Under the pieces are notes generated by a model that had not been told where the DNA came from, did not search any database, and saw only the letters and a list, made by a program, of their open reading frames with translations. A DNA stretch of 32,531 nucleotides, taken from contig CALJFZ010000020.1 in the NCBI GenBank assembly GCA_938074325.1, forward strand, positions 1 through 32,531, given 5' to 3'. Positions 10,462-19,454 of the stretch are shown here, piece by piece. Within the stretch, counting starts at the first letter, position 1. Each line of letters opens with the position of its first letter. Both the position numbers and the translations under genes were made by a program. This DNA is from an uncultured Flavobacteriales bacterium (lineage in GTDB: Bacteria > Bacteroidota > Bacteroidia > Flavobacteriales_D > Sanyastnellaceae).

Positions 10462-10890
10462 TTGGCATTACACTTTCACAATGCCGACCACGCATTTCGC
10501 TGCCCGCAGCGCCGAAAAATCCGCGCGTGGATCGAAGAGTTTGCTCGCACCCACGGAAAGCGTATTGGTGAAATCTCCATTGTCTTCTGCAGCGATGCCT
10601 ACCTGCTCGAGGTGAACAAAACCCACCTCAATCACGATTACTACACGGACATCATAACCTTTGACTACTGCGAAGCCGGAGAGTTAAACGCAGATCTTAT
10701 GCTCTCCATTGACCGCATCAAAGAGAACGCAAAAACACATAATCAATTGTTTTTCAATGAGTTAATCCGTGTCATCATCCACGGACATCTCCACCTCGTT
10801 GGCTACAAAGACAAAAGCGAAAAAGAACAGGTAGCCATGCGCAATCAAGAAGACGCGTGGATCACCACATTCCACCAATCCGCCTCATGA
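10462..10890 (+). CDS. ybeY: YbeY endoribonuclease (rRNA maturation)
   Basis: A 142-residue protein with the UPF0054/YbeY signature HGHLHLVGYKD. YbeY is a metal-dependent single-strand RNase involved in 16S rRNA 3'-end maturation and ribosome quality control. The first two zinc ligands are H107 and H111. The third ligand position (+10 from the first) is D117 instead of the histidine of E. coli, in the form GYKDKSEKEQ that I associate with Bacteroidota. No ATG precedes the conserved N-terminus (MALHFHNAD aligns with the usual start), so the likely start is TTG 10462-10464. The last bases overlap the mnmG start as ATGA (10887-10890), indicating translational coupling. Confidence 0.9.
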   Translation: MALHFHNADHAFRCPQRRKIRAWIEEFARTHGKRIGEISIVFCSDAYLLEVNKTHLNHDYYTDIITFDYCEAGELNADLMLSIDRIKENAKTHNQLFFNELIRVIIHGHLHLVGYKDKSEKEQVAMRNQEDAWITTFHQSAS

Positions 10891-12758
10891 TCCACGATAC
10901 TTACGACGTTATAGTAGTCGGAGCTGGGCACGCTGGCAATGAAGCCGCTGCTGCTGCCGCCAACCTAGGGGCCTCTACCCTGCTCATCACCATGAACATG
11001 GGGGTCATTGGTCAGATGTCTTGTAACCCCGCTATGGGTGGAATCGCAAAGGGTCAAATCGTCCGTGAAATCGATGCGCTTGGAGGTTACTCAGGAATCG
11101 TGAGCGATCACAGCGCCATTCAATTTCGGATGCTCAACCGCTCAAAGGGACCCGCTATGTGGTCTCCCCGGACACAGAACGACCGCATGCGATTTGCCGA
11201 AAAGTGGCGCCTGATGTTGGAACAAACGAACCGGCTTGATTTTTGGCAAGACGCCGTCACAGAATTGCTCATAGAAAATGGCACTTGTGTTGGGGTTAAA
11301 ACACAACTTGGCGCCACCATTCGATCGAAATCCGTAGTGGTCACAGCAGGAACCTTTCTCAATGGGTTGATGCACATCGGAGAAAAACAATTCGGCGGTG
11401 GCCGCGCTGGCGAGAAAGCCATTCGCGGCATCACAGAGCAACTGGTCGATCACGGTTTCAGCGCAGACCGCATGAAAACCGGTACTCCGCCCCGCGTAGA
11501 CGGAAGAAGTATCAACTACGCTGTCCTCGAAGAGCAATTGGGGGATGAAAATCCGCAACGATTCTCTTACGCGGACACCCCGCAACTCAAAGAACAACGA
11601 AGCTGCCACATTGCCTATACCAACCTGGATGTGCACGATTTGCTCCGGGAAGGTTTTGATCGATCGCCCATGTTCAATGGCCGAATCCAGGGACTTGGCC
11701 CTCGTTACTGCCCGAGCATCGAAGACAAAATCGAACGATTCAGCGACAAGGACGCTCACCAACTTTTTGTCGAACCCGAAGGATGGGACACCATTGAAGT
11801 GTACGTCAACGGCTTCAGCACCAGCCTGCCTGAAGATGTCCAGGTAAAAGCATTGCGGGCCGTACCTGGATTCGAGAACGTGAAGTTCTTCCGGCCTGGC
11901 TACGCGGTGGAATACGACTTCTTCCACCCCACCCAACTTCGACACAGCCTCGAAACCAAGGCCATCAGCAATCTATTCTTTGCGGGCCAAATCAACGGTA
12001 CCACCGGTTATGAAGAAGCCGCTGCCCAAGGCATCATGGCCGGCATCAATGCAGCACGTTCCACGTGGAACCAAGATCCGGTTGTGTTAAAACGCAATCA
12101 AGCCTACATCGGTGTCTTGATTGACGACCTGGTTACCAAAGGCACCAAAGAACCGTACCGCATGTTCACATCCCGAGCAGAATACCGGATTCTGCTCCGT
12201 CAGGATAATGCCGATGCGCGTTTAACCCCGTTGTCCCATGCCATTGGTTTAGCAAGCGATGAGCGCATGCAACAACTGGAGGCAAAACAGTCCCGTATTC
12301 ACGCGGCTAAAAAAGGGCTGGAAAAATTGAGTGTCGCACCCAATGAGGCAGAAACGCTTCTCAGCGAGAAAGGCTCTGCGTCGCTCAAGCAGAAACAAAA
12401 AGCCATTTCCCTTCTTACACGCCCCAACATCGGCATAGCCGATATGGCCACACATGTTGACAGCATTCAGGCCTTGCTCACCGATCACCAACTCACCCCG
12501 GAGGACCTTGAAAGCATGGAGGTAGAGGTAAAGTACCAGGGCTACATCGAAAAAGAACAAGCCGTGGCAGACAAACTCCAACGCTTGGAGTACGTCAACA
12601 TCCCAAAGGACTTCAACTATCACGCCTTGGAATCATTGAGCAGCGAGGCCCGAGAAAAGCTCACTGAAGAGAGACCGGACACTTTGGCAACTGCTTCAAG
12701 AATTTCTGGAGTCAGCGCTTCTGACCTCGCCGTTCTGCTGGTTAAGCTCGGCCGGTAA
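10887..12758 (+). CDS. mnmG: tRNA uridine-5-carboxymethylaminomethyl modification enzyme MnmG (GidA)
   Basis: A 623-residue protein, close to the usual MnmG length of about 620-630. The FAD-binding Rossmann motif is VVGAGHAGNEAA (G12-x-G14-x-x-G17). Other family signatures are SCNPAMGGIAKG, FRMLNRSKGPAMWSPRTQ, GTFLNG, KTGTPPR, QINGTTGYEEAAAQG and KEPYRMFTSRAEYR. The C-terminal MnmE/tRNA-binding region includes YQGYIEKE and DFNYHALESLS. With MnmE it installs the carboxymethylaminomethyl group on U34 of certain tRNAs. I use ATG 10887, which overlaps the ybeY stop as ATGA, in preference to an upstream GTG at 10857. A parS-like palindrome lies inside the gene at 12057-12072 and a perfect parS lies directly after its stop. 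Confidence 0.97.
   Translation: MIHDTYDVIVVGAGHAGNEAAAAAANLGASTLLITMNMGVIGQMSCNPAMGGIAKGQIVREIDALGGYSGIVSDHSAIQFRMLNRSKGPAMWSPRTQNDRMRFAEKWRLMLEQTNRLDFWQDAVTELLIENGTCVGVKTQLGATIRSKSVVVTAGTFLNGLMHIGEKQFGGGRAGEKAIRGITEQLVDHGFSADRMKTGTPPRVDGRSINYAVLEEQLGDENPQRFSYADTPQLKEQRSCHIAYTNLDVHDLLREGFDRSPMFNGRIQGLGPRYCPSIEDKIERFSDKDAHQLFVEPEGWDTIEVYVNGFSTSLPEDVQVKALRAVPGFENVKFFRPGYAVEYDFFHPTQLRHSLETKAISNLFFAGQINGTTGYEEAAAQGIMAGINAARSTWNQDPVVLKRNQAYIGVLIDDLVTKGTKEPYRMFTSRAEYRILLRQDNADARLTPLSHAIGLASDERMQQLEAKQSRIHAAKKGLEKLSVAPNEAETLLSEKGSASLKQKQKAISLLTRPNIGIADMATHVDSIQALLTDHQLTPEDLESMEVEVKYQGYIEKEQAVADKLQRLEYVNIPKDFNYHALESLSSEAREKLTEERPDTLATASRISGVSASDLAVLLVKLGR
12057..12072. promoter_or_regulatory. parS-like ParB-binding palindrome inside mnmG
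   Basis: The sequence contains the 14-bp perfect palindrome GTTCCACGTGGAAC at 12058-12071. This is the variant parS core known from pseudomonads (TGTTCCACGTGGAAC-type), with both outermost bases (12057 and 12072) being C. It encodes R-S-T-W-N at a place in MnmG that is not an obvious conserved motif. It lies about 700 bp from the perfect parS at 12760, and real parS sites often cluster. ParB binding is inferred. Confidence 0.5.
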
Positions 12759-12759
12759 G

Positions 12760-12775
12760 TGTTTCACGTGAAACA
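12760..12775. promoter_or_regulatory. parS centromere-like site (ParB binding), perfect palindrome
   Basis: The 16-mer TGTTTCACGTGAAACA matches the conserved bacterial parS consensus at all 16 positions and is a perfect palindrome. It begins two bases after the mnmG stop codon. parS sites load ParB/Spo0J for chromosome segregation and lie mainly near the replication origin, so the window is probably origin-proximal. A random 16-bp match is very unlikely in 32 kb. No parA or parB gene is in the window. Confidence 0.88.
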
Positions 12776-12824
12776 TGTCGAAAACCGTTGTTTCCCGCCC
12801 ATTTAGCGCCTAAAACACCCTTGA

Positions 12825-12839
12825 TGAACCACTGGTTCA
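12825..12839. repeat. Inverted repeat between mnmG and the aldehyde dehydrogenase gene
   Basis: TGAACCA and TGGTTCA form perfect 7-base arms around a single central C. The spacer is too short for a normal RNA hairpin and there is no T-run, so an operator-type protein site is more likely than a terminator. It lies about 80 bases upstream of the aldehyde dehydrogenase promoter box. Its function is unknown. Confidence 0.35.
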
Positions 12840-12918
12840 ATTCTTTGAGAACTAATGATTTTATAAAGTCTTGATTTTCAGTTTCTTATGCTGAAAACCC
12901 ACCCAAAACCCACCCCAC

Positions 12919-12926
12919 TACCTTTG
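12919..12926 (+). promoter_or_regulatory. Bacteroidota -7 promoter box for the aldehyde dehydrogenase gene
   Basis: TACCTTTG is a full match to TAnnTTTG, with the following GCACC that commonly trails this box in the phylum. It lies 19 bases before the ATG at 12946, implying a short leader. No good -33 TTG is seen at the expected distance. Confidence 0.6.
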
Positions 12927-12945
12927 CACCTGAATATTTCCCGCC

Positions 12946-14478
12946 ATGGACATCCAAAACATCCTCTCTGAACTCAAGATTGAAAAGACCAACTCCGGCG
13001 TCATGATCGGAACCGAAGCATTCGGGTCAGGTCCTCTCATCGAATCCATTTCCCCAGTAGACGGCAAAATCATTGCGTCGCTCACAAGCGCTACGGAAGA
13101 AGAATACGAACGTGTTGTGGAAGCCGCTCACGCCGCTTTCATCGAATGGCGCAACGTACCCGCACCAAAGCGAGGCGAAGTGGTGCGTCAGTTCGGCGAT
13201 GCCCTGCGCGAAAAGAAGGATGCGCTTGGCGCTTTGGTGAGTTACGAAATGGGCAAGTCCCTTCAAGAAGGTTTAGGTGAAGTGCAGGAGATGATTGACA
13301 TCTGCGACTTCGCAGTGGGCATGAGCCGTCAACTGTATGGCATGACCACACATTCAGAGCGACCCGAACACCGCATGTTCGAACAGTACCACCCGCTCGG
13401 CGTTGTTGGCATCATCTCCGCCTTCAACTTTCCTGTAGCCGTGTGGGCTTGGAATACAGCATTGGCTTGGATTTGTGGCGATTCCTGTGTCTGGAAGCCC
13501 TCTGAGAAAAGCGCTTTGTGCTCGCTCGCGTGTCAACATATTTGGAATGAGGTTGCCGAAGCCAATGAGGTTCCTGCAGCACTCTCGTGCGTCGTGAACG
13601 GCTACGCCAACATCGGTGAGAAAATCAGCGCAGACTCGCGCATCCCATTGGTCAGCGCTACTGGTAGCACCCGCATGGGAAAGGCGGTAGGCGCCACCGT
13701 AGGAGCTCGTCTCGGACGTGCGTTGCTTGAGTTGGGTGGCAACAACGCCATCATCATCACGCCAGACGCAGACCTGGATATGGTGGTTCCAGCGGCTGTC
13801 TTTGGCGCTGTCGGTACGTGCGGTCAACGTTGCACGTCCACTCGTCGCCTCATCATTCACCGTTCCATTTACGATCAGGTCAAAAACGTCTTGGCCAGTG
13901 CTTACACGCAATTGAGTATTGGCAACCCCTTGGATCAAAACAACCACGTGGGTCCATTGACCGACCAAGCCGCCGTCCAGATGTACCTCGATGCCCTCAA
14001 AGCCGTAGAGGACCAAGGCGGCAACTTTGTGGTAAAGGGAGGTAAGCTCGAAGGACCAGGCTATGAGAGTGGTTGCTACGTAAGCCCATCCATCGCAGAA
14101 GCCAGCAACGACCTCGCTATTGTGCAGCACGAGACCTTCGCGCCCCTTCTGTTCATCATGCCTTACGATGAATTGGATGAAGCAATTGCCATGCAAAACG
14201 GTGTCGCCCAAGGTTTGTCATCTGCGATCATGACCAACAACGTCCGGGAAGCTGAAGCATTCTTGTGTGCAAGCGGTTCTGATTGCGGCATTGCCAACGT
14301 CAACATCGGCACCTCCGGCGCAGAGATTGGCGGAGCCTTCGGCGGTGAAAAAGAAACAGGTGGAGGCCGAGAATCTGGTTCCGATGCTTGGAAAGCATAC
14401 ATGCGCCGCCAAACCAACACCGTAAACTACGGCCGCACCTTGCCACTGGCTCAAGGAATCAAATTCGACCTCGGTTGA
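12946..14478 (+). CDS. ALDH7-type aldehyde dehydrogenase (alpha-aminoadipic semialdehyde dehydrogenase-like)
   Basis: A 510-residue NAD(P)-dependent aldehyde dehydrogenase. Visible active-site elements are N161 in SAFNFPVAVW, K184 in VWKPSE, E262 in LLELGGNNA, and catalytic C296 in TCGQRCTSTRR. The C-terminal signature SGAEIGGAFGGEKETGGGRE, followed by SGSDAWKAYMRRQTNTVNYG, is characteristic of the ALDH7/antiquitin family. Members oxidise alpha-aminoadipic semialdehyde in lysine catabolism or other aldehydes in stress protection; the lysine-related role is the best guess. The gene starts downstream of a good -7 box. Its TGA overlaps the next gene's ATG (TGATG at 14476-14480), so the two are probably co-translated. 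Confidence 0.92.
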   Translation: MDIQNILSELKIEKTNSGVMIGTEAFGSGPLIESISPVDGKIIASLTSATEEEYERVVEAAHAAFIEWRNVPAPKRGEVVRQFGDALREKKDALGALVSYEMGKSLQEGLGEVQEMIDICDFAVGMSRQLYGMTTHSERPEHRMFEQYHPLGVVGIISAFNFPVAVWAWNTALAWICGDSCVWKPSEKSALCSLACQHIWNEVAEANEVPAALSCVVNGYANIGEKISADSRIPLVSATGSTRMGKAVGATVGARLGRALLELGGNNAIIITPDADLDMVVPAAVFGAVGTCGQRCTSTRRLIIHRSIYDQVKNVLASAYTQLSIGNPLDQNNHVGPLTDQAAVQMYLDALKAVEDQGGNFVVKGGKLEGPGYESGCYVSPSIAEASNDLAIVQHETFAPLLFIMPYDELDEAIAMQNGVAQGLSSAIMTNNVREAEAFLCASGSDCGIANVNIGTSGAEIGGAFGGEKETGGGRESGSDAWKAYMRRQTNTVNYGRTLPLAQGIKFDLG

Positions 14479-15647
14479 TGCGGGCTGCGGTCACTATCCT
14501 GGGCATTGTCCTATTGTCCGCTTGCAGCAATCCTTCCAGTAAACCTGTGGAACGCGAAGTACTTTCCTTTGTGCTGAATGATTCTACCCGGGCCCGCGTT
14601 CAACTGGGCGCGCACGACGGTGAATGGATAGTACGGAATGGGGGAGAGGCCATCCGGCTTGAGCGGATAAGCGATGGTCTTTACCATGTTCCTGTGTTCA
14701 ATGGGAGCATCAAAATGATCAATGACACCCAAGGTACGTGGACCGATTCATTGCGCCCGCAAGGCGCTAATGGACCTTATCAGGTCGATGTAGAACGCTT
14801 ATATGAGTCCATTGGAACCGGTAAAACCATCGCAGGCACCTGGGATGTTTGGTTCGGTGAAAACAGCCTTTTGCACGAAGGGGAGGCGCGTTCCCAATTG
14901 GATCTCCAAACCGTGGGGAACGAAATTCACGGGACCATGCGAACCCCAACCGGCGACTATCGGTACCTCAATGGTTCATTCGATGGAGCTCAACTCGTGC
15001 TCCAAACCTTTGACGGAGCGCACCTCTTTCGGTTCGACGCTATCCTAGAAAATGGGGGGTGGACCCAGGGGAATTTCTACAGCGGCAACCACTACCATGT
15101 AAACTGGTCCGGTCTGCCTGCTCAACCTTGGGCCAATTCTGCATCGGTTGAACGCATCGAAACGCCACTGGACTCTTTAATCGTTCGCTGCATCGACCGC
15201 GCTGGTAATCCGATAACCCTGTCGCTGCTGCCAGAAGCTGGACACGTCAAAATTGTCGACATCCTGGGCACTTGGTGCCCGAATTGCATGGATGAAGTTC
15301 GGCTATTATCGTCCCTGGACGGTGAGCACCTCGAACGGCTTTCTGTAGCCTTTGAGCGTCCAAATGAGGCCGAGGCAGCCTATCAACGAATCGATGACTT
15401 CACCCGCGAAATGGATGTCAACTGGGATGTCATCCTAGGTGGAGCGGCAAATAAACAAGTCGCTGCTACCGCATTCCCTTTCCTGGAGGAAGTCATCAGC
15501 TTTCCGACAACGCTGTTCATCCAGCACGACGGCACCGTCCATATCCACTCCGGATTTAACGGACCCGCAACAGGCGATCACCACCAAACCGAGATCGCCA
15601 CGTTCAATCGGTATTCCTCACCTGTTACTTCTCTGGAAAATCGTTGA
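14478..15647 (+). CDS. Lipoprotein with C-terminal TlpA/thioredoxin-like domain
   Basis: A 389-residue protein starting at ATG 14478, which overlaps the stop of the aldehyde dehydrogenase by one base. The lipobox is VLLSAC with the lipid-attached Cys at residue 16, followed by SNPSS. The middle (about 30-245) is beta-rich and resembles the N-terminal domain of Bacteroidota TlpA-like proteins. The C-terminal redoxin domain has the active site GTWCPNC (C267, C270) and a later SFPTTLF segment with the cis-proline region. It is probably a membrane-anchored periplasmic thiol reductase or peroxide-related protein. The last 23 bases overlap the convergent M28 frame. An earlier in-frame ATG inside the dehydrogenase gene is rejected because it would bury the lipoprotein signal. 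Confidence 0.85.
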   Translation: MRAAVTILGIVLLSACSNPSSKPVEREVLSFVLNDSTRARVQLGAHDGEWIVRNGGEAIRLERISDGLYHVPVFNGSIKMINDTQGTWTDSLRPQGANGPYQVDVERLYESIGTGKTIAGTWDVWFGENSLLHEGEARSQLDLQTVGNEIHGTMRTPTGDYRYLNGSFDGAQLVLQTFDGAHLFRFDAILENGGWTQGNFYSGNHYHVNWSGLPAQPWANSASVERIETPLDSLIVRCIDRAGNPITLSLLPEAGHVKIVDILGTWCPNCMDEVRLLSSLDGEHLERLSVAFERPNEAEAAYQRIDDFTREMDVNWDVILGGAANKQVAATAFPFLEEVISFPTTLFIQHDGTVHIHSGFNGPATGDHHQTEIATFNRYSSPVTSLENR

Positions 15648-17547
15648 CCCGGTCCACTTCAATGCGTTTCGCTTGGTTCGCTAATTGCCAAGCTGTGTAA
15701 AACACAAGTTGACCAATTTCAGCGGTCTTATCGTAGTGAATTTTTTCTGGATCGTCGCCTGGCCGGTGGTAATCCTCGTGTACGCCGCTGAAGTAAAAAA
15801 TCACCGGGATGTTGTTCTTCGCAAAGTTGTAGTGATCCGATCGGTAGTAGAATCGATTGGGATCATCCGGGGCATTGAATGTGTAGTCCAGCGCCAAATT
15901 CGTGTAAGTAGAGTTGGCTGTTTCGCTGATCTCGTGCAGTTCCGAGGACAACTTATCTGACCCAATCAAGTAGACATACCGATCGTCATCCGGGTGGGCT
16001 TCATCGACGCGACCGATCATATCAATGTTGAGGTTCGTCACGGTATTCTCCAACGGCCAAATCGGATGATCCGCATACCATTCACTGCCCAACAATCCTT
16101 TTTCTTCTCCTACCACGGTCATTAACAAAACGCTTCGCTTGGGACCCATGCCCGCATTGACAGATTCCATGAAGGCATCCGCTAATTCGAGGACCGTTAC
16201 CGTTCCTGAACCGTCGTCGTCTGCACCGTTGTGAATCTCGCCGTCGATAATACCCACGTGGTCATAGTGTGCGGTAATGACGATTAACTCGTCTCGTAGG
16301 AGTGAATCCGAACCCGGGATGTAGCCGAGGACATTTTGTGCCGTTACTGACTCTTCTGTTCGATCCAACGAGAACGTCCAAGACACCGCAAGCTCAGCCG
16401 GTTGCATAGCCTTGTTCTTGGTCCTCTTCTTGGTCCATTTCTTCCAAGATTTAACCGCCGAACCTTTCCACCAGTGGCCCGTCGCTCCTGCATCCACCAT
16501 GAAGGTCGGAATGCGCGTTCCCTCGCCGTTTTCAGGCTGTTCCCGGTCCAATCGCAAGGACTTGCGCAACAACCAGGGCTTCATTCGGCTGCGCAAGGTG
16601 CTGATGTCGTCGCTCACCGCAATGACAGCCACCGCGCCACCTTCGTTTGCCGCTTCACGTGCCTCGTTCAGTCCGGATCCCATCGGAATAACCACCGCTT
16701 TTCCATCAACATTTGCGTTGGCCACGTCTGCAGCTGAATCGATGGCAATCATCGGTACATCCTGCATCTCGGTCACACGTAGGCCTGGATAAAACAGGAA
16801 TTCTTCCAAAAATTCCAAGGCCTCATCGCCTGCACGTGCACTTCCTCCTTGAACCTGCGATCGAATCAATTTCACAGGTTGGTAGTAGGTCGATCCATCG
16901 TACGGAGCGATGCCAATGGAGTTGAAATGACTCGCTATGTATGCAGCAGCTTTTTCGGCTCCGCGTTCCCCTGTCTCGCGGCCTTCAAACGCATCACTTG
17001 CCAAAACCATCAAGTGGTTTTCCAAGTCTCCGGCCGTGATGGTCTCCGCGTAAGATGTAGGATCTGCAATTTGCCCAATTGCTAACTGAGGCAACCACGC
17101 CAGCAATCCAAGGAAAACAGCACAAGCAATTTTGCTCACGCGACGTTCATGGCGTCCTCCTTCAAAGTCTTCTTCGAGGTAAGCTTTCAAGATGGCCAAA
17201 CCTTCTTCTTCGGAGACAAACCGTGCGGGAATGCAAAGTACGTTGGCATTGTTGTGCAACTTTACCAACCGTCCTACCTCCTCATTCCAGGCCAGGCCCG
17301 CACGAACTTGCTGATGCTTGTTGGCTGTCATTGCCACCCCATTTGCAGATCCGCAAATCAAAATACCGAAATCAACAGCTCCATTCGCCACATCTTCCGC
17401 AACCGCATGCGCATGATCTGGATAATCCACACTGTCTTCTGCATCAGTGCCTCGATTGATAATTTCCACTCCCTTGGATTCCAAGTATGTTGTCAGGACC
17501 TTCTTCAAGGCGGGTCCTGCGTGATCACCTCCGATTGAAACGCGCAT
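15625..17547 (-). CDS. Single frame joining RpiB ribose-5-phosphate isomerase to a secreted M28 metallopeptidase
   Basis: One open frame of 640 codons with no internal stop. Residues 1-140 are a complete RpiB: D8-H9 in GGDHAG, C65 in ICGSANGVAMTANK, H98 in LHNNANVLC, ending in the typical RpiB terminus FEGGRHERRVSKI. Residues about 137-160 then form a signal peptide (VSKIACAVFLGLLAWLPQ, then LAIGQ). Residues about 160-640 are an M28 peptidase with a PA-like insert near 255-350 and Zn/catalytic residues H427 (TAHYDHVG), D443 (NGADDDGSG), E481-E482 (GEEKG), D509 (NIDMIG) and H594 (EDYHRPGDD). The peptidase may be produced separately from the GTG at 17137-17139, which begins the signal peptide exactly. 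A real fusion would place a cytosolic isomerase in front of an internal membrane signal. An assembly or sequencing error that removed the rpiB stop is also possible. ATG 17547 is preferred over an upstream TTG. Confidence 0.87.
   Translation of the reverse strand: MRVSIGGDHAGPALKKVLTTYLESKGVEIINRGTDAEDSVDYPDHAHAVAEDVANGAVDFGILICGSANGVAMTANKHQQVRAGLAWNEEVGRLVKLHNNANVLCIPARFVSEEEGLAILKAYLEEDFEGGRHERRVSKIACAVFLGLLAWLPQLAIGQIADPTSYAETITAGDLENHLMVLASDAFEGRETGERGAEKAAAYIASHFNSIGIAPYDGSTYYQPVKLIRSQVQGGSARAGDEALEFLEEFLFYPGLRVTEMQDVPMIAIDSAADVANANVDGKAVVIPMGSGLNEAREAANEGGAVAVIAVSDDISTLRSRMKPWLLRKSLRLDREQPENGEGTRIPTFMVDAGATGHWWKGSAVKSWKKWTKKRTKNKAMQPAELAVSWTFSLDRTEESVTAQNVLGYIPGSDSLLRDELIVITAHYDHVGIIDGEIHNGADDDGSGTVTVLELADAFMESVNAGMGPKRSVLLMTVVGEEKGLLGSEWYADHPIWPLENTVTNLNIDMIGRVDEAHPDDDRYVYLIGSDKLSSELHEISETANSTYTNLALDYTFNAPDDPNRFYYRSDHYNFAKNNIPVIFYFSGVHEDYHRPGDDPEKIHYDKTAEIGQLVFYTAWQLANQAKRIEVDRVNDFPEK
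17137..17139 (-). promoter_or_regulatory. Candidate internal GTG start codon for the M28 peptidase
   Basis: In the RpiB-M28 frame, codon 137 is GTG and starts the segment M(V)SKIACAVFLGLLAWLPQ, which is a well-formed Sec signal peptide with a short basic start, a hydrophobic core and a LAIGQ end. A GGAGGA run lies 15 bases upstream, too far for a classical ribosome site. Initiation here would yield a 504-residue secreted peptidase independent of RpiB. Use of this start is inferred. Confidence 0.4.
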
Positions 17548-17927
17548 TTTCAAGAATTTGAGCGGCAAGTTAATTCACAACCCAGCCGTTGAAAGCGCTC
17601 ATTCGATGTGAAGAACTCCACAACAACTCCATTTTTATTTTCAGCCAAACCGCCTAAGCCAACGTGACCATCAAAATTCAAAATTTTGAACCGGGAATTT
17701 TCCCTTCCTGTTTTCCCGAAAAAAGCTCAGGTTATTGACGATGAACGTTGGGATAAATTATCCAATTAGCCATTCATTCACACGGTGTTTAAAACCATCT
17801 TTAACCTTTGAAAATCAAGGATTCTTTTTGAGCGAGGGTGTTCAGAACTGATTCCAATTTCGTTGAGAACTCATTTTTCCAAGGTGTTTTGCACTCCCTT
17901 ACCAACAGTTTCAACAGACCTATAACG
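17548..17927. other. Non-coding, AT-rich, palindrome-rich intergenic region
   Basis: This 380-bp stretch separates the divergent RpiB-M28 and MORN genes and holds no credible gene. It is clearly AT-richer than its surroundings. It contains three palindromic elements: TTCAAAATTTTGAA (17677-17690), GGGAATTTTCCC (17693-17704, 5-base arms) and GGATAAATTATCC (17751-17763). The last includes two divergent partial matches to a DnaA box (TTATCC plus flank). An ORF extending upstream of the MORN start on the plus strand is not supported by a signal peptide. No perfect -7 box was found before 17928; AACCTTTG at 17803-17810 is one base off the consensus. Confidence 0.6.
17677..17704. repeat. Adjacent palindromes upstream of the RpiB and MORN genes
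   Basis: A perfect 14-bp palindrome TTCAAAATTTTGAA (17677-17690) is followed after two bases by GGGAATTTTCCC (17693-17704). An 11-base match to the second element (GGGAATTTTCC) recurs upstream of the peroxiredoxin gene at 27784-27794. These could be regulator binding sites; no regulator is identified. Confidence 0.4.
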
Positions 17928-19454
17928 ATGTATTTATTTTCTAAGAAAGAGAATATATTATTGTTATGCCTGTGGATGACATCTTGCTGTTTTTCGCAGG
18001 ATCTGTCGGCTGAATGCGAATGGACGGTGTATACCTTTCCAAACGGAAACAAAGCAAGCGAAGGATGTTTAATCAATGGTCAACCCGAGGGAATTTGGAC
18101 GGCGTACCACGCCAATGGCCAGGTCAAAAGCAAGGGCAATCGACAAGACTTTCAATTGGAGGGCACTTGGGAATTTTTCGACTCGACTGGGGTGAAGCTG
18201 AGATCGGTCGAGTATGCAGCAGGTGCGAAGTCGGGTTGGGAGCGAATGTACCGACTCGACAGAACACTGAAAGCGGAACAACACTTTCAGTCAAATAAGC
18301 GCGAAGGGTGGACCTATGAGTACGATGGCAGTGGCCAACGCCGAAAAGCGATACCATTTCGAAGCGATTTAGAAGACGGAAAAGGAAAGGAATATGCTGC
18401 AGACGGCCGAACCATCGCATTGCTGGAATACGACAAGGGGTATTTGCGGAACGTGGAGAAGATCAATCGATACGATCTCCAGGGCGAAAAAACCGGCATG
18501 TGGATGGAGTGGAATGACAACGGAATTCTCATGGAACAGGGTCCCTGGCAAACTGGTAAACGCAACGGTTTATTCCGGTTCTACGATCAGTGGGGACAAC
18601 TTGAAGATGTGATCAAATACCTTGACGGCGAAGTGGTCGTTGATGCGGAAGAGGCGCAAGAGATCGACATCAGAACCACGGAACACGAGAATGGGGTGAT
18701 TGCGTCACGGGCAACTTACGAGAATGGTGTTCGGGTTGGGGTGTATACGGAGTACGCTGAGGATGGAAGTATTGTGTCGGGGGCGTTGTATGAAAAGGGC
18801 GTAAAAATAGGCGAAGGCATCACGAATGCAGAAGGCAAACGGATAGGGCAGTGGAAGCAATATTATCCTGACGGGGCATTGAAATCAGAAGGTGAGTTCA
18901 TAGACGGGAAACGTGAAGGAAACTGGCGTTTCTATGCGGAAACCGGTCAGTTGGTTCAGGAAGGAACGTATCGGGATGGTGCATTCAATGGAAACTGGCG
19001 CTGGTATTACCTGGATGGTTCGCTGCACCGCGATGAGTCCTACAGGAGAGGAAAAGCGGATGGCGAATTCCAGGAATTGGATAAGGCAGGAAAAACGCTG
19101 GTGAAGGGACGATATGATTTTGGATTGAAACAGGGTCCATGGATTGTTGATGTGAACGACAATCGGGAAGAAGGTGAATACGTTGACGGCGAACGGAACG
19201 GAGATTGGAAACACACGTACCCCGACGGGACAGCGCAATTCGAAGGCAGCTACGAATTGGGAATCCCAGTAGGCAAGCACATTTACAAAGACACCAATGG
19301 ATCAACCGTTCGCGTCGAGCGTTACGAACTGGGGCAACGCGATGGAAAATGGTTGTTTTACGGACCGAACCAAATGCTTCAACAAACCCTGGAGTACAAA
19401 CGCGGAGAGTTGGTTCGAATTGACGGAAAACGCATCAAACCCATTGAGGGTTAA
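17928..19454 (+). CDS. Secreted MORN-repeat (YwqK-type) protein
   Basis: A 508-residue protein starting at ATG 17928, which gives a signal peptide (MYLFSKKENILLLCLWMTSC, then CFSQ). A lipoprotein reading is possible but the -3 residue is Met, which is not canonical. The rest is built of roughly a dozen repeats of about 20-25 residues of the form E-G-x-x-x-x-G-x-x-x-G-x-W-x-x-Y-x-x-x-G, for example KREGNWRFYAETGQLVQEG and GKRIGQWKQYYPDGALKSEG. This is the MORN_2 variant found in proteins often auto-named YwqK antitoxins. No toxin partner is present, so a toxin-antitoxin role is not supported. It stands 11 bases before the histidine kinase gene and is probably in one operon with the kinase and response regulator, which makes a sensory accessory or surface role plausible. 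Confidence 0.85.
   Translation: MYLFSKKENILLLCLWMTSCCFSQDLSAECEWTVYTFPNGNKASEGCLINGQPEGIWTAYHANGQVKSKGNRQDFQLEGTWEFFDSTGVKLRSVEYAAGAKSGWERMYRLDRTLKAEQHFQSNKREGWTYEYDGSGQRRKAIPFRSDLEDGKGKEYAADGRTIALLEYDKGYLRNVEKINRYDLQGEKTGMWMEWNDNGILMEQGPWQTGKRNGLFRFYDQWGQLEDVIKYLDGEVVVDAEEAQEIDIRTTEHENGVIASRATYENGVRVGVYTEYAEDGSIVSGALYEKGVKIGEGITNAEGKRIGQWKQYYPDGALKSEGEFIDGKREGNWRFYAETGQLVQEGTYRDGAFNGNWRWYYLDGSLHRDESYRRGKADGEFQELDKAGKTLVKGRYDFGLKQGPWIVDVNDNREEGEYVDGERNGDWKHTYPDGTAQFEGSYELGIPVGKHIYKDTNGSTVRVERYELGQRDGKWLFYGPNQMLQQTLEYKRGELVRIDGKRIKPIEG

Follow-up and report, generated by a model that had tools for sequence, protein, structure and literature searches.

A palindrome beside mnmG is very probably one of two paired chromosome-segregation sites in a marine Flavobacteriales bacterium

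Introduction

The switch of ParB to a CTP clamp is part of the known biology of ParABS, and Bacillus subtilis has an intragenic parS. In chromosomal ParABS systems the parS sites are origin-proximal, as reviewed in the part of PMC7333895 available to us, and in gut bacteria, two Bacteroidetes among them, parS clusters have served to locate the origin; the accessible text of that study (PMC10197239) states that the origin is not systematically accompanied by dnaA and gives no known condensin for those two species. The BUS origin architecture, as described in the accessible part of PMC8287927, consists of DnaA boxes, a spacer and DnaA-trios.

The locus described here resembles chromosomal ParABS, as presented in the available part of the review (PMC7333895), in the palindrome itself, in having few and clustered sites, in the presence of ParB and a ParA-like gene, and in its location beside a skew switch, but it differs in that parAB and dnaA are remote from parS and in that the core sites detected in its family are confined to mnmG. 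As in the available text of PMC10197239, a parS cluster and GC skew mark the origin, and here too no SMC scores over cut-off; within that text gidA has 0 occurrences and an intragenic site goes unmentioned. ParABS is already known, as is the parting of origin and dnaA (PMC10197239, available text). Our literature search returned no title or abstract on parS at mnmG/gidA in Bacteroidota and, within the literature searched, no codon-frozen parS inside a gene; the parS survey of Livny et al. 2007 was not covered by it and may list such sites.

Two exact parS sites at mnmG

The window, which is the whole 32,531-nt stretch of DNA analysed, constitutes the entire contig C20 of a draft genome of 2,153,914 bases in 59 contigs (87.9% complete). 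It contains mnmG and, immediately downstream, a palindrome that matches the parS palindrome at 16 of 16 positions (Table 1). The initial annotation had described a full 16-bp parS directly after mnmG, and this stands as written, with a single base separating the TAA stop codon (12756-12758) from the 16-mer. An in-frame GTG upstream, at 10857, also opens the mnmG frame. Assuming 53% G+C, the exact 16-mer would be expected in ~6e-6 copies in the window and 4e-4 in the genome. With up to two mismatches it is found in one place only in the draft genome, as is the reversed control pattern, and with three mismatches 23 of 100 window shuffles contain matches; because looser matching also returns control and shuffle matches, the weight rests on the match being exact.

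A relaxed-core search with GTTNCACGTGNAAC revealed a second exact parS core, inside mnmG, which differs from the 16-mer at 4 positions and was absent from the initial annotation. When 2 mismatches are allowed in the relaxed core, 50 of 100 shuffles reach two matches; both matches in the window are exact. Specifically, the exact core GTTYCACGTGRAAC has 2 copies in the draft genome, both at mnmG, against 0.03 expected and 0 for the reversed control, and the two lie 703 bp apart, so that the sites are few, clustered and non-random. The earlier reading had hinged on the 16-mer not being scattered over the chromosome, and in the assembled genome it is not. In our view it is highly likely that the palindrome belongs to a pair of parS sites and that this pair is the sole centromere detected in the assembled portion of the genome.

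Table 1. Features of the window (coordinates are window positions)
Feature	Position	Strand	Remarks
mnmG (gidA), host of the parS pair	10887..12758	+	TIGR00136, 820 bits against a cut-off of 525
parS site A, GTTCCACGTGGAAC	12058..12071		mnmG codons 391-395 counted from 10887, R-S-T-W-N
parS site B, TGTTTCACGTGAAACA	12760..12775		exact palindrome; downstream core site in 73/80 named loci
ORF, in-frame fusion of an RpiB domain and a peptidase-like part	15625..17568	-	flanks candidate oriC
Candidate oriC, an AT-rich gap from which rpiB and the repeat-protein gene diverge	17551..17927		skew minimum 17926
DnaA-box-like tandem, then CC and a degenerate DnaA-trio-like run	17899..17930	+	block AACA-N(1,2)-CCTA
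Repeat-protein gene	17928..19454	+	flanks candidate oriC

Linkage of parS to mnmG in the family and beyond

Of the 114 genomes of the family, 103 have the core and 13 the reversed pattern (hand count). Nine of the 11 genomes that lack the core have no mnmG in the assembly, one (G008) has part of the gene and one (G031) has the full gene; G031 (locus L308) encodes ParB and a complete mnmG and has no exact core, and the one-mismatch variants in its mnmG region are perhaps drifted sites. Sixty fetched regions, each comprising mnmG and up to 1.5 kb on either side, contain 113 core sites, which are all 113 counted genome-wide for those genomes, and the two regions without a site are again those of G031 and G008. 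Counting instead over the family core-site list up to G056, with a single G057 row covered by the fetched regions, 71 of 74 sites (48 genomes) fall within 656 bp of the mnmG match, with 36 upstream, 25 downstream and 10 inside; two of the three unlinked sites are on a different contig from mnmG and the third is in an assembly without mnmG. We also observed that the mnmG match of G003 (G003:C12:3988-5862) has 21 internal stops and that the match of G102 (G102:C49:1963-4144) consists of two pieces.

We further examined 80 named loci totalling 1.63 Mb, which are the highest-ranking 80 among 582 matches; one locus is assigned to Bacteroidia only. All 189 core sites in these loci are at mnmG, with up to 10 kb searched per side and many flanks ending at contig ends; 104 lie ≤250 bp upstream, 73 ≤1250 bp downstream and 12 inside the gene, and both flanks carry sites in 66 of the 80 loci. 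The sets overlap, several named loci also being among the 114 family genomes. At the phylum level, the core occurs in 274 of 296 genomes, against 14 of 296 for the reversed control (hand count), and is absent altogether from 22; sites lie within ~210 bp in 28 of the 30 best-scoring mnmG loci, 24 of which come from one family (f23), and the other two have none. Among the matches listed, a hand comparison of class-level genomes places a site ≤1 kb from mnmG in 22 of 24, a count that leaves out six core-carrying genomes without mnmG among those matches. The exceptions are G150, with its site on another contig, and G278, with its site 26.6 kb from mnmG; one of the two sites of G184 is ~25 kb away. 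The wider Bacteroidota thus mostly agree with the mnmG linkage, and exceptions exist. In the Aquimarina loci (L070, L074-L076, L079-L081, L086, L088), three to four parS sites are spaced ~40 bp apart upstream of mnmG and one further site is found downstream.

An intragenic parS site with frozen codons

Site A encodes the peptide RSTWN. In an alignment of 34 full-length carriers, 265 columns have an invariant residue (columns with one residue other than M or W being counted), and the only four that also have an invariant codon are the four site A codons other than Trp, a placement with odds of 1 in 2e8 if columns are exchangeable. A smaller alignment of 12 genes (the window, six near relatives and five others, leaving out the partial gene L068) has 345 invariant-residue columns, 6 of which have an invariant codon, 4 of them belonging to site A. 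Partial or broken genes (G102, G067, G008, G060, G084, G094 and G070) were left out of the 34-carrier alignment; three of these, G060, G067 and G070, do carry the intragenic site. Together, the alignments indicate that site A is preserved as DNA and has dictated part of the MnmG protein. Like the intragenic parS of Bacillus subtilis, it lies inside coding sequence, and unlike that case, the peptide of the carriers differs from those of all aligned non-carriers and the site codons are the only fully frozen ones. The site at codons 391-395 requires one change on a tree that includes its columns and two changes (one gain and one loss, or two gains) on a quick tree built without them. Other genera have further intragenic sites, near codons 229, 465 and 527, and the positions of these vary among the relatives shown.

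ParB, ParA and the split layout

The genome does not lack parB, which we found on another contig, C2, as a single match of 298 aa. The protein passes TIGR00180 (177-178 bits, cut-off 58) and is top-scoring against the nucleoid-occlusion (Noc) model TIGR04285, at 225 bits, below the cut-off of 315. At E ≤0.001 it aligns with 15 distinct sequences of solved structure, ParB/Spo0J and Noc chains among them (aligned ParB residues 40-235 for 7bnk, 4-243 for 6t1f, 34-230 for 1vz0 and 43-230 for 6sdk). Directly upstream lies a gene for a ParA-like ATPase of 270 aa, which matches ParA/MinD models and is over cut-off in none of NCBIfam, and dnaA is on the same contig, ~8 kb from parB. Across the family, parB is matched in 99 of 114 genomes, 96 of them over cut-off; many of the 15 genomes without a match are incomplete, but G068 is 95% complete. 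For SMC, the best result in the genome of the window is one match at 18.8 bits against a cut-off of 567, and none is over cut-off. The layout is split, with parS, mnmG and the origin together, and dnaA and parAB together elsewhere.

Skew and the replication origin

The initial annotation had predicted that the window lies near oriC, and the skew supports this: the cumulative GC skew of the window reaches its minimum ~5 kb from parS, and in a relative assembled as a single contig of 4,097,636 bp (G047) the chromosome-wide skew likewise flips ~5 kb from parS. One correction concerns dnaA and parB, which are on another contig here and ~1.66 Mb from parS in G047. Across 21 samples, the skew of G047 stays below zero between 1.76 and 3.63 Mb and above zero from 3.65 Mb, across the contig ends, to 1.54 Mb. 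The minimum of the fine profile is at ~3.646 Mb and the three core parS sites are at 3.639-3.641 Mb; dnaA (1.984 Mb) and parB (1.971 Mb) are 0.2-0.4 Mb away from the other switch. The 4,049,130-bp scaffold of Maribacter thermophilus has negative skew from 0.88 to 3.07 Mb, with one sample near zero at 1.54, and positive skew from 3.30 Mb round to 0.68 Mb; its mnmG at 3.034 Mb is 30-265 kb from the flip, and its dnaA, at 0.705 Mb (G408:C1), is beside the other switch. Maribacter thermophilus supports the near-origin location more loosely than G047 does, and the chromosome of G230 gave no interpretable skew pattern. A location of parS near the replication origin is supported, the evidence throughout being skew. 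We also considered dnaA as the origin marker and rejected it: on contig C2 the skew is positive in 25 of 25 4-kb bins, covering 100 kb around dnaA and parB, and there is thus no flip there. By skew, dnaA (G047, G408) and parB (G047) lie toward the replication terminus.

Within the window, the skew minimum falls in the AT-rich gap between rpiB and the repeat-protein gene. This divergent gene pair is found in 17 of 17 stretches (15 distinct contigs, as L065 is identical to G054 and L066 to G068) and is inverted in G039 and G009. The gap contains a box-like tandem, TTACCAACA at 17899-17907 and TTTCAACAG at 17909-17917. Like the BUS architecture in the available part of PMC8287927, it shows a box-like tandem whose first box is 12 bases from CTA-type trios, and clear trio runs are present in L064, G061 and G009; unlike BUS, the boxes of the window are weak and its trio run is weak and degenerate. 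Thirteen of the 17 gaps (11 of the 15 distinct ones) contain the block AACA-N(1,2)-CCTA, with a single-base-shuffle chance of 0.01 to 0.05 each, for a pattern chosen after the sequences had been inspected; the match counted in G047 lies earlier than the block near the gene start. The trio run comprises 5 trios in L064, 4 in G061, 6 in G009 and 1 in the window, and 1-2 in the remaining 9 block-bearing rows. No three DnaA boxes (≤1 mismatch) fall within 350 bp in any of the 17 stretches, window included, and because there is no cluster of strong DnaA boxes we refer to the gap as a candidate only.

Alternative explanations

A 16-base palindrome just after a stop codon could fold in RNA and act as a hairpin or terminator where the mnmG transcript ends, and we rejected this reading, which we regard as very improbable, on the site positions, the pair-breaking variants and a terminator scan. 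Such a role does not suit the 104 of 189 core sites that lie upstream of mnmG or the 12 inside it; moreover, 16 of the 189 sites have C/A, a combination incompatible with pairing in RNA (11 have T/G, a wobble), and a scan for terminators over 12600-13000 returned a sole site at 12825-12839, which is not the palindrome, where shuffles give 0.4. Binding by another dimeric regulator that controls mnmG rather than segregation would account for why the sites cluster at a single gene, frequently 20-40 bp ahead of the start codon in a position open to a repressor. There is little chance that this is correct, since the sites have the parS consensus sequence in a genome that encodes ParB and mnmG lies by the skew switch, and intragenic sites at four different positions fit a centromere better than an operator. 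For site A in particular, the intragenic copy could be a by-product of the protein sequence, given that RSTWN is identical in all 34 full-length carriers. That peptide can be encoded in 288 ways, of which a single one is used in 34 of 34 carriers, and codon choice varies in every one of the other 261 invariant-residue columns; 29 of 29 aligned non-carriers have other peptides at codons 391-395, and RSTWN in other codons is found in none of the 63 aligned genes, which leaves this explanation with almost no probability.

A more serious alternative accepts the sites as parS and places the origin outside the gap at 17551-17927, elsewhere within some tens of kb. It draws on the two local skew minima seen around mnmG in several relatives, the lowest skew lying in G061 and G047 on the side of mnmG opposite the rpiB gap, and on the lack of a DnaA-box cluster. 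Against it, the lowest skew point (2-kb steps) is ≤2 kb from the rpiB gap in 7 of 9 stretches, namely the window, G059, G068, G054, G043, G039 and G009, the gap being inverted in the last two. We consider this alternative unlikely, though by no means negligible.

Proposed role and implications

Our preferred reading is that this marine bacterium very probably uses the palindrome as one docking site of a pair when it pulls its copied chromosomes apart. By extension from known ParABS biology, ParB dimers would bind both sites at mnmG, close into CTP clamps and slide from there over the gene and its neighbours, and ParA would separate the resulting complexes together with the newly copied origins next to them. 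More tentatively, and with doubt about the combination as a whole, we speculate that mnmG is centromeric over much of Bacteroidota, with parS bracketing the gene or lying in frame within it at four places and ParB clamps covering it; that this association outlived the linkage to dnaA and parAB and left one genus group with a rewritten tRNA-modifying enzyme; and that expression of mnmG might be tied to segregation of the origin through the loading of ParB.

In draft Bacteroidota genomes, mnmG could serve as a portable marker for the centromere and probably for the origin, where dnaA can mislead. Site A offers a clean case of a DNA site fixing both codons and residues inside a gene, and the layout raises the question of why parS stays at one gene while parAB sits elsewhere.

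Genes flanking the candidate origin

The repeat protein reads as MORN-like, its sole NCBIfam match being below cut-off. On the other side of the gap, the start of rpiB is probably the ATG ending at 17550. No stop separates the RpiB domain from the peptidase-like part, which reads as M28, and a signal-peptide-like stretch lies between the two. The frame is open through in 11 of 12 stretches including the window, and G047, unlike the other stretches checked, has a stop after RpiB.
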